NCBI GenBank assembly: GCA_017626325.1
Contig: JAGAIZ010000023.1
Location: forward strand, 1 to 43,178
Reading direction: 5' to 3'
From: Lachnospiraceae bacterium
Lineage (GTDB): Bacteria > Bacillota > Clostridia > Lachnospirales > Lachnospiraceae
Length of the DNA stretch: 43,178 nt
Made by a program: the position numbers and the translations under genes. This document shows positions 23,621-27,747 of the stretch, in pieces. Within the stretch, counting starts at the first letter, position 1. Each line of letters begins with the position of its first letter. The notes below the pieces were generated by a model. That model did no database searches. It saw only the letters and a program-made list of their open reading frames with translations, and was not told the DNA's origin.

Positions 23621-23778
23621 GATATATTTTTGTTTTTGTGAGGTTTTAGCGACTTCTTGGCAATGCGGGTTTACATGAGGCTTTGATTTATAGCTTGTCA
23701 AGAGTAGAAGTTTAAAGTATATTTAAAATGATTACTTATGATGCGGTTGACAGTGTGGAAGGAGAGGAGAGATATATA

Positions 23779-24502
23779 ATGGACAAGCTGTATATTATTA
23801 TCCCAGCATATAACGAAGAAGAAAATATACGCAATATTATACATGATTGGTATGATATAATAAATAGAATTGGGGGGGGGCAAACTCGTAATTATAGATG
23901 ATGGAAGCAAAGATAATACATATTCCATCATGAAAGAATGTCAGTGCGAGATGCCTGACTTCATAGCTTTGACAAAAGAAAACAGCGGACACGGCGCTAC
24001 TGTTTTGTTTGGTTATCAGTATGCGCTCTCACATCATGCAGACTATATTTTCCAGACGGATTCAGATGGACAGACGCTGCCGGAAGAGTTTGAACAATTC
24101 TGGCGTCAGCGGCACACATACGATATGATTATCGGGTACCGGAGAAACAGGGAAGACGGTTTATCAAGAAAATTTGTTACGAAAGTTCTTAAATTGACGA
24201 TTCGTATGTGTTTCGGTGTAAAGGTGTCGGATGCCAATACCCCTTTTCGTCTGATGAAGGCGGATACGCTCAGAGAAAATATTGGTCTGATTCCGAAGGA
24301 TTACAATCTGTCTAATGTTATTATTGCGGTGATTTATGAGAAAAAGAAATTGGCCGTAAAATACATTCCTATCACTTTCAGATCACGCCAGGGAGGCGCA
24401 AATTCCATTAATTTCATGAAAATAGTCACAATTGGCATTGCGGCGGTTAAAGATTTTAAAATGATTAATCAAATTATCAAGGGAGACGAGAAAAATGCAT
24501 AG
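23779..24502 (+). pseudogene. GT2 glycosyltransferase with frameshift at a G9 tract (possibly phase-variable)
   Basis: The gene starts at 23779 (AAGGAGAGGAGAG upstream) with MDKLYIIIPAYNEEENI, the N-terminus of family 2 glycosyltransferases. The frame then reaches nine consecutive G (23872-23880) and stops a few codons later. With eight G the chain would run on without interruption as IGGGKLVIIDDGSKDNT and continue to 24502, giving about 240 residues with the donor-site DSDGQ and the downstream GYRRNREDGLSRK. So the tract is one base too long for expression, or one base is a sequencing error. The product would transfer a sugar to a lipid or protein acceptor at the membrane. It overlaps the next gene by 8 bases. 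Confidence 0.85.
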
Positions 24503-26000
24503 TCCGGTTAAGAAAGAATCAATGAGGGATGCCGGACTTGTGTTATTGCTTGCTGTTCTGGCATTTTTGTTTTCTATGCAGTGTTCCGTCCATTTATGGA
24601 AGAATGGGAATGTTTCCCCGGATTCGGCTGTTTATAAGACAGTGGCCTTTTATATAGATCAGGGATATATGCCGTATAAAGACACCTTTGATCATAAAGG
24701 CCCTTTATTGTATATCTATAACTGGCTTGGAATGCAGATATCTTATTGGAGAGGAATATGGGTAATCGAATTTCTGTCGCTTCTGTGCACTTTTGGGATA
24801 CTCTATAAGACTGCAAGACTGTGCTGTGGCAGACTTTTGTCATGTTTTACGCTGCTTGCTGAGGCAGTTTTGTTGTCTGAGTACTTTGAAGGGGGAAATA
24901 TGGTGGAAGAATATGCGCTGCCTTTTATTGCCGCAGCTCTCTATATTTTTCTGGATTATTTCTTGAATCAAGTCGTATGTAGAGGCCGGTTACTTGTTTG
25001 TGGTTTGTCGTTTGGAGCAGTATGTCTGCTGAGAATCAATATGATATCCATATGGATCGTATTTTGTATCGCAGTGTTCGCAGACGCTGTTTACCATAAG
25101 AAATACAGAGAAATAAGGTATTTTATTGCATATTTTGTTGTTGGTGCCGGAATCATATGCATACCGATACTGGCCTGGCTTGTGGTGAATGGAGCGTTTG
25201 AGGATTTTATTGCGGATTATTTTCTGTTTAATTTTAGTTATTCATCCAATTCGGTAAGAGCAAATGGTCTCAACAAATGGAAGACATTCTTATTCTATCT
25301 GAATGAACCTTTCTTACTTACGGCAGTTTCCTGCACGGCGTATTTGTGTGTGGTGAGAAAGAAGCTTCTTGATTACGCATATGGTATGGGAATCCTGATT
25401 TCATTGATTCTTATCAGCGTATCGGGAAAATCTTATGGCCACTATGGTATAACGTTGGTGCCTCTTCTGGGATATCCGTTCGGGGTAATCGGGCGCATGA
25501 TAGAAAACGAGTTGAAGCGCGGATCATCATGGATTGTCGCCGGTCTGTTGATTCTCATGTCTGTGTCTGTTTTTCCTGCGTGGCTGGAGATAACCGGCTG
25601 CGCGGTAGAAAGTTATATACAGAGGGATATGCAGTTTGAAGAAACGGATATCAGAAATAAGATCATTAATGTGGTTGCGGAGAATACGACGGAAGACGAT
25701 TTTATTACAGTCTATGGAAACATGGATGTTATATATGCCAGGAGCAGAAGACTGTCTGCGTCAAAATATTCTTATCAGGATCCAATTGGGGGAATCAACA
25801 GCGCCGTATATGACGAATATTTTGCAGAACTGGAGGAAACGTCTCCGAAATTAATTATTATAACGCCATATGAGGAATACGAATTGGAGCGTATAAGAGC
25901 GTACATAGACAGGCATGGTTATCAGTTGATTGCAACGTTTGATGAGACAGTTAAAGAGAAGCAGAAGGTGTACTGGGTCTATGGCAGAGAAGATGGGTGA
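24495..26000 (+). CDS. GT-C type membrane glycosyltransferase (GT39/ArnT-like)
   Basis: The 501-residue protein has about ten membrane segments and the typical first loop SPDSAVYKTVAFYIDQGYMP followed by KDTFDHKGPLLYIY, with an Asp likely to bind the acceptor or divalent metal. This is the pattern of lipid-linked-sugar-dependent GT-C enzymes, which act on the outer face of the membrane. The C-terminal part (about 375-501) is hydrophilic. GGGAGACGAG precedes the ATG, which overlaps the GT2 gene by 8 bases. It is the only gene of the three in this cluster without a frameshift. Confidence 0.85.
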   Translation: MHSPVKKESMRDAGLVLLLAVLAFLFSMQCSVHLWKNGNVSPDSAVYKTVAFYIDQGYMPYKDTFDHKGPLLYIYNWLGMQISYWRGIWVIEFLSLLCTFGILYKTARLCCGRLLSCFTLLAEAVLLSEYFEGGNMVEEYALPFIAAALYIFLDYFLNQVVCRGRLLVCGLSFGAVCLLRINMISIWIVFCIAVFADAVYHKKYREIRYFIAYFVVGAGIICIPILAWLVVNGAFEDFIADYFLFNFSYSSNSVRANGLNKWKTFLFYLNEPFLLTAVSCTAYLCVVRKKLLDYAYGMGILISLILISVSGKSYGHYGITLVPLLGYPFGVIGRMIENELKRGSSWIVAGLLILMSVSVFPAWLEITGCAVESYIQRDMQFEETDIRNKIINVVAENTTEDDFITVYGNMDVIYARSRRLSASKYSYQDPIGGINSAVYDEYFAELEETSPKLIIITPYEEYELERIRAYIDRHGYQLIATFDETVKEKQKVYWVYGREDG

Positions 26001-26050
26001 ATCTTATGGCTTGTGCAGATGATGACAGAATCGTGGATGAAGGAGGATAT

Positions 26051-27747
26051 ATGATAAAGATAATGAAAAGTTGGAAGCAAAGAAAGGTGTTTGTAAGCTC
26101 TAATGCTTTGTGGATTATGGCAGGCGTGTTTTCTTTGTCAGTTACGACAGGATTTTTTCTTGACCATGGTATGCCCTTTGAAAGTATGTCAGGGCAGGAA
26201 TTGTTAATTTATGCAGCGTGTGTTTGTGTTCTGATACCTTTGTGTAAGTGTTTATTCACGTGGGCGTATGTGTTGATTGAAAAATGGGCGTGTAAGGAAA
26301 TTAAGTGTGAAAATAGCAGAGTGGGGGAATGCGGAACGTATATGAGAACCTTTCTCGTAATTATACTATGCTGGATTCCGGTATGGCTTGCATATTATCC
26401 TGGTTTGTGGAATTATGACCCGGGACAGGTGGTGCAGTATCTTAACGGAGACTTTTCGAAATTTCATCCGCTTATTCATACACTGTTACTGGGGTTCTGC
26501 TATTCTGTGGGATGGAAGTATTCAGACAATAATATGGGTGTTATTCTCTATGATTTTATTCAGATGTTTATTATGGCGGGGATTTTTGCATATGCATGTA
26601 CCTGGTTAAGAAGGCAGATAAGGTGCAGGACATACTATATTCTTACGGTTTTCTTTTTTGCAATTTTTCCCGTGAATTCGATTATGGCCCTCAGCACAAC
26701 CAAAGACGTTATTTTTCTGGGCTGGTGCAGTTGAACCTCGTCATGGCAGTTCAATATTATGACAATATGTCAGATAATAATACCGCAAAAAGATATGTTC
26801 TCGTATTATTAATGGGATCTGTAACACTGATGCTTTTGTTTAGAAACAATGCCATATATGCTTTCTTTTTGTTTATGATCATGGGAGTTGTATATACGCG
26901 GAGGCAGAAGGAAAGTGTCAGGATTATATTGTTTATGATATGTTGTCTTGCCGTGTATTACATCGGCGATGTCTGTCTCACTAAAGCGCTGTCAGCGGAC
27001 GACGGCATGATTCAGGAGGCGCTTAGCGTTCCGAGTCAGCAGTTCGGGAGAATATATACAGTTGCCTGTGCTAATGGAGATGAAGAAAGTAAAGAACTGA
27101 TAGAAGCGTATTATACGGAGATGACGACTGAAAGATATAATCCCCATCTGTCGGATCCGATGAAAGGACACTTGGTAAATGTCGAATCTGCGGCAAAGGT
27201 GTTGGAATATTTCCGGACGGCGGGTAAGCTTTTGGTGAAATATCCACTCGTAAGTCTGGACTCTTTCTTATATCTTACGGAGGGAGGCTGGTATATTAAT
27301 GATACATCTTGTGCAGCTATTTATGGAACAGGACTGGAAACCCGGCAGGGTTATCTGCTTACGGATGTAAAGGATCGTTTCGGAACGATAGAGTTTGGAA
27401 TTGTACACCAGAGCAGGTTTCCTTTGCTGGAGAATATTCTGGAGCATGCTTTCTCAAATAATGAATATCAAAAGATACCTATATTGTCTGTATTGTTTGC
27501 ACCTGCATTGTATTTCTGGATATTGGCGTTTTGTATGGTTGGTTTGTATTATGTACGGAATGTACGTTATCTCTATCTGACGGGCTTTTTGGGAATCTTA
27601 TATCTAACAGTATTAGCCGGACCATGCATCATAGTCAGATATATGTATCCGTTTATAGTATGCAGTCCGGTTTTGCTTGCAATGTTGGTGAAATCTGTCC
27701 GTGTCTGTTATATGAACAAGGAGTATATAGATGGTGAAGAGGTATAA
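26051..27747 (+). pseudogene. DUF6020-like polytopic membrane protein with frameshift at a T5 tract
   Basis: Two overlapping frames belong to one protein. The first (from 26051, AGGAGG upstream) runs through several membrane segments and WNYDPGQVVQYLNGDFSKFH to STTKDVIF, then stops at 26732. The second continues from SGLVQLNLVMAVQYYDN to 27747 with more membrane segments. Reading ATT TTT TCT instead of the present A-T5-C at 26711-26717, one T more, would restore one protein of about 565 residues. DUF6020 proteins are membrane proteins of unknown function often found with cell-surface glycan genes. Whether the missing T is real or a sequencing error cannot be told here. Confidence 0.8.

Follow-up and report, generated by a model that had tools for sequence, protein, structure and literature searches.

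Poly-G tracts are found in surface-structure genes of Campylobacter, a genus that is not known to have MutS1, and poly-G or poly-C tracts serve as promoter-spacer switches of the Neisseria genes porA and fetA. In gut commensals, most of the known phase variation works by DNA inversion. A survey of Campylobacter reports that 53% of the tracts are G9 and 26% are G10, 77% are in open reading frames, and 5% have C on the coding strand (PMC6321876). Slippage at a G-tract has been shown in Bifidobacterium: in the sortase-pilus switch of Bifidobacterium breve, a tract within the coding part of a surface gene either connects two of its frames or keeps them apart (PMC9187656). For the Akkermansia capsule, a report describes inversion and mentions long mononucleotide repeats at one acyltransferase gene (PMC13343947). 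The slipped-strand mechanism is already known; a full-text search of the open-licence literature found no paper that describes it at poly-G tracts for Lachnospiraceae.

The locus analysed here is in a stretch of 43,178 nucleotides (the window), which is contig C3 of the draft genome G000 of a Lachnospiraceae bacterium (3.11 Mb, 88 contigs). A GT2 glycosyltransferase (GT) gene of the window is broken at a tract of nine G. The gene and its operon have the following features.

23759..23769, forward strand: SD-like sequence AAGGAGAGGAG, 9 nt 5' of the start codon (read from the sequence).
23779..23871, forward strand: 31-codon piece of the GT2 gene before the tract, beginning MDKLYIIIPAYNEEENI (translation, alignment to homologues).
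23872..23880, forward strand: the G9 tract, the proposed switch (sequence, run counts, shuffles).
23899..23901, forward strand: stop codon TGA that closes the upstream frame in the nine-G state (translation).
23873..24502, forward strand: downstream part of the GT2 gene, 209 residues, with DDGS and QTDSDGQ motifs (open reading frame, Pfam, alignments).
24495..26000, forward strand: gene for a polytopic-looking protein of 501 residues, the probable partner of the GT (open reading frame; homologues co-located with GT homologues).
25997..27747, forward strand: DUF6020-like gene, split over two overlapping open reading frames (25997-26734 and 26596-27747).

The first-pass annotation had placed a nine-G tract at 23872-23880 in a glycosyltransferase gene, and both position and length are exact. 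The G residues are on the coding strand of the GT2 gene, and the tract is the sole run of at least seven G or C in the window. A mean of 0.25 G9 tracts is expected in the window by chance, and at least one was present in 20 of 100 dinucleotide-preserving shuffles. On its own, a G9 tract in 43 kb is unremarkable; what goes beyond chance is the length profile and the placement of G runs across the G000 genome and the genus.

The frame from the ATG at 23779 (MDKLYIIIPAYNEEENI...NRIGGG) has 40 codons and ends at the stop at 23899-23901, and the rest of the GT2 gene is open in another frame, up to position 24502. The frame break falls exactly at the G9 tract, a repeat within the reading frame. The upstream piece of 31 codons has 61-77% identity to the N-termini of homologues (best 12 of 95 loci matched). 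The downstream piece matches the Pfam profile Glycos_transf_2 with 40.5 bits (cut-off 23.3); it lacks the start of the GT2 domain, because the match begins at profile position 30. The downstream half keeps 52 of 52 strongly conserved columns (those with conservation of 97% or more in a set of 68 homologues). This is the norm for the homologues themselves, which in a leave-one-out comparison miss a median of 0 and a maximum of 6 such columns, and it therefore shows only that decay has not begun. The earlier description of the two halves as otherwise preserved is borne out by the aligned N-terminus, by these columns, and by the lack of any other lesion in the GT. The three glycines encoded by the tract had been assigned to a variable loop, and this holds because the homologues differ in both length and residues at the tract position. 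An independent start of the downstream frame as an intact gene, which had been named as a possible objection to a switch, was rejected: the only candidate is a TTG at 23870, which has no SD-like sequence and leaves out the start of the GT2 domain.

Combined with five homologues in one profile, the downstream piece matches the structures of ArnC (best 2.4e-14), sll0501 (1.3e-13), and DPMS (1e-7), which suggests that the GT is a polyprenyl-phosphate sugar synthase. The enzyme resembles GT2 proteins of the ArnC and dolichyl-phosphate-mannose-synthase type in these matches, but has about 240 residues, whereas those chains have 322-374. The NCBIfam models of ArnC and PgfS match the GT weakly, and every curated cut-off is missed. 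The following gene encodes the 501-residue protein, which has no match in Pfam or NCBIfam. The two genes travel together, because homologues of both co-occur in L043-L047 and L049, and the 501-residue protein is probably the partner of the GT. The DUF6020-like gene has a frameshift near 26720; its two parts match adjacent stretches of the profile, and no long run is present at the frameshift. No copies of the GT were found in the phage records or viral contigs searched, and the comparison of the gene at the DNA level with 40 relatives gave weak matches only.

We propose, with a probability of roughly 0.8, that the nine-G tract makes this surface-glycan GT2 gene a contingency locus, switched by slipped-strand mispairing at a simple-sequence repeat and captured here in the OFF state. 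Polymerase slippage at replication would add G residues to the tract or remove them. Tract lengths of 3n+2 would place the two GT2 halves in one frame (ON), and other lengths, such as nine, would end translation after 40 codons (OFF). The GT would probably load a sugar for the membrane partner encoded at 24495-26000, so that ON and OFF cells should differ in surface sugar. The tract of the window would belong to a wider repertoire of poly-G switches in the genus, part of which is within reading frames and part in the spacer from the -35 to the -10 box. The reversibility, sugar function, and phenotype of the switch we infer from sequence. The phase variation that the first-pass annotation had raised as a possibility is favoured by comparative evidence: the break at the tract, the non-decayed halves, and the G on the coding strand, and further the sister tracts of G000 in or before surface-type genes, the tracts in some of the homologues, and the length profile in the genus.

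The genome G000 contains six runs of at least nine G and two of exactly eight, the latter in genes of other kinds. The five long runs other than that of the window all have G on the coding strand and are in or before sugar-nucleotide or secreted-protein genes, three of them in promoter-like spacers.

C49:11796: in frame, near the N-terminus of a 2459-residue protein with a GH53 domain.
C43:53450 (G9): in frame, where the two FdtA domains of a sugar-nucleotide enzyme meet.
C43:52853 (G13): between TTGATA and TATTAC, before the same FdtA gene.
C49:19201 (G9; L021:14202-14210): between TTGCAA and TATAAT, 89 nt 5' of a gene for a 120-residue protein.
C59:21690 (G10; L022:8691-8700): between TTGATA and TAAAAT, about 57 nt 5' of a gene for a 1617-residue protein.

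The two C43 tracts are in L020:8854-9947. In genome G091, two FdtA matches adjoin as separate frames. The gene that follows that of the 120-residue protein encodes a product with an S8 protease domain, and the 1617-residue protein has a signal-like N-terminus. A conserved promoter tract before the orthologues of the 120-residue protein was considered, and the evidence for it is weak. Of the 21 loci entered, two were dropped as the start was not found, and a run of nine or more is present in only 4 of the remaining 19, G000 included (G9, G10, G10, and G13), with tracts gained and lost.

Other genomes of the genus contain many more tracts. Runs of nine or more number 40 in G042 (Lachnospiraceae bacterium UBA7196), 38 in G070, 29 in G083, 66 in G088, and 87 in G005. 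Loci L036 and L098 have identical DNA, which ties G042 to the name UBA7196. In random sequence, the expected number of runs of nine or more is about one third of that of runs of exactly eight. In the four genomes in which the latter were counted, the ratios of longer runs to runs of exactly eight are 40:3 (G042), 38:4 (G070), 29:1 (G083), and 6:2 (G000), with binomial probabilities below 1e-15 for each of the first three and of 0.003-0.006 for G000. Runs of nine or more thus outnumber those of exactly eight, and the tract lengths in the lineage are beyond chance. In G042, 28 of 41 runs are exactly G10.

The functions of tract genes were looked at in part for G042 and G083. For the 22 in-frame runs of G042, 19 genes were scanned, whose products match methyltransferases, MBOAT, hexapeptide and GNAT acyltransferases, WcbI, a sulfatase-like protein, FkbM, TylF, a sugar-associated ATP-grasp protein, a prepilin peptidase, and a FIVAR protein; four have no match and one has a weak match below the cut-off. 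For the 19 runs outside called frames, 11 first downstream genes were scanned. They encode two flagellins, two BspA-like LRR proteins, a histidine kinase, an ABC permease, and five proteins without a match, three of which start like secreted proteins. One of the flagellin genes (L243, G042 C9) has a G10 on the minus strand at 2567-2576, four bases 5' of its ATG and in the position of a ribosome-binding site, which is perhaps a translational spacing switch. Clusters of tracts also occur: a glycan cluster of G083 (L267-L268, C11) has eight G9-G11 tracts in about 27 kb, where part of the genes are in frame and others are interrupted at their tract, and about 12 kb of L271 (G088 C11) contain six G9 tracts.

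By frame-length thresholds, which may admit chance frames, the coding tracts of G042 are called in frame in 22 of 22 cases, three of them doubtful (L235, L242, and L251). This share exceeds what free switching would give and counts against switching. Tracts of the genus-mates, sampled away from N stretches, are in mixed states by the same kind of thresholds: 12 ON, 4 OFF, and 7 other among 23 tracts from G070, G083, G088, and G005. Tract clusters of G083, G070, and G088 gave another 19, with 7 ON, 6 OFF, and 6 other. In glycan clusters, genes broken at tracts stand beside tract genes that are in frame. In one OFF acyltransferase gene, Pfam Acyl_transf_3 is matched over positions 2-203 in one frame and over 237-323 (below the cut-off) in the other, with the break at a G11. 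At L235 (G042 C2, minus strand, 2321 and 2625), one flank occurs with a G9 ending at an N gap and again with a G11 across the gap; this is an assembly break at a tract, as length heterogeneity could cause. MutS1, recognized by its MutS_I domain, is encoded in 74 of 77 genomes, among them G000, which counts against switching and rules out loss of MutS as its cause.

Position between -35 and -10 boxes was found for sister tracts and not for the G9 of the window. Among 66 tracts scored, those near N being excluded, 11 have boxes scoring at least 10 of 12, compared with 0.53 expected from shuffled flanks (6/37, 2/6, and 3/23 by set). Across 77 genomes there are 268 occurrences of the pattern GGGGGGGGGTANNNT and 35 of its reversed version; the former is more frequent in 62 genomes and less frequent in one. 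Because a T is also found after coding tracts, these counts put the number of promoters too high. The pattern is weakened as a test for promoters alone, since its C-for-G version is also in excess (42 versus 14) and the base after the tract is T in 34 of 37 cases in G042, including coding tracts. In these tracts (L205-L266), the next two bases are TA in 22, in coding and promoter-like tracts alike. Of 30 loci with the pattern, 25 were readable, and five of these have a perfect TTGACA at 16-19 nt, two of the five being orthologous. The pattern is patchy in the family, with occurrences in 67 of 299 genomes and 66 of 298 genera. G237, from another genus of the family, has 26 matches to a G9-TANNNT pattern and 6 to the control in 1.6 Mb, far above the others sampled.

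Homologues of the GT within the genus gave 20 matches with at least 40% identity, of which 18, all but the second matches in G059 and G018, were examined with their flanks. Runs were recorded from seven G upwards in 17 loci (L036-L052) and from eight upwards in L275 and in 80 named loci. Five of the 18 have a tract of at least eight G elsewhere in or beside the GT, and a sixth has G7; in the fetched DNA of the remaining 12, no run of at least seven was found in or beside the GT, which counts against switching. G043 has two GT paralogues, both broken at a G10 in the conserved GG..NSI motif. In G012, a G9 is located between TTGACA and TAAAAT just 5' of the GT in a pair of the GT and 501-residue type. 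In G003 and G076, the GT is intact and a G11 is near the start of the next reading frame, and in G045 a G7 occupies the corresponding place. One of the 80 named loci, L113 (UBA7097), has a G9 in frame inside the GT. None of the 18 same-genus homologues or 80 named loci has a G run at the position of the window's tract. A fixed, conserved tract is rejected on this basis, and the prospect that relatives would all show eight G was not realized in any homologue examined. Since runs in and around the same gene are at different places, it seems that tracts arose there on several occasions, as they would if switching is selected for.

The main sign for plain decay is the run-free break of the DUF6020-like gene in the same operon, which a poly-G switch leaves unexplained. 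If the operon is decaying, the GT gene would be a pseudogene and its G9 a one-off frameshift in a chance run, of the kind present in 20 of the 100 window shuffles, and the six runs of G000 are far fewer than the 29-87 of five genus-mates. Nevertheless, we consider a pseudogene unlikely: the GT has no lesion besides the break and keeps its 52 conserved columns, the two G043 paralogues are likewise broken at another tract site, and the L113 homologue is in frame across its own G9.

A miscount in sequencing or assembly, with a real tract of another fixed length and a gene that is simply intact, appears less likely still. In its favour, homopolymer lengths are prone to error, the assembly is a draft in 88 contigs, some G042 tracts adjoin N gaps, and the B. 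breve study describes sequencing trouble at G-tracts (PMC9187656). However, a fixed tract in the GT, the length profile, and the promoter-like tracts would all still need explaining. The homopolymer at the frame junction is also compatible with programmed transcriptional slippage or ribosomal frameshifting, by which the full protein would be made from nine G in every cell. Such a mechanism would be useless for the other tracts, in promoter-like spacers or already in frame, and transcriptional slippage favours A/T runs; we regard it as the least probable of these explanations.

As a contingency switch, the tract and its sisters show a partial likeness to the Campylobacter poly-G phasome, in that there are many tracts per genome, lengths peak at 9-10, G is on the coding strand, and tracts are mostly in reading frames, with others intergenic (PMC6321876). 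Genes for surface structures are among the tract genes in both. The differences are that the host belongs to the Gram-positive Clostridia, promoter-like spacer tracts are prominent, MutS1 is present, and G000 has only six runs. The B. breve switch is likewise a G-tract inside the coding sequence of a surface gene in a Gram-positive gut commensal; there, however, it is in a pilus gene of a member of the Actinomycetota, with two loci in the strain studied, and a length mixture and an in vivo shift were measured (PMC9187656), whereas the proposed switch of the window is read from the sequence. The sister tracts and the G012 homologue are similar to Neisseria porA and fetA in having the tract between -35 and -10 boxes before surface or secreted protein genes, a likeness read from their sequences; unlike in porA and fetA, the tract of the window is outside a promoter spacer.

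It is probable that the genus runs a poly-G phasome on the scale of that of Campylobacter, with tens of tracts per genome in several species, which acts on surface-glycan modification, secreted proteins, and flagellins. The switch would move among the frame, the promoter spacer, and the neighbouring gene between homologous operons, and would work in Gram-positive gut anaerobes that bear mismatch repair. If slippage at poly-G tracts varies the glycans, secreted proteins, and flagellins of this large genus, the surface states of these commensals would be readable from tract lengths in ordinary metagenome reads, and so would their immune recognition and sensitivity to phages. Surface genes that look 'broken' in genomes of this kind may not be pseudogenes but switches.
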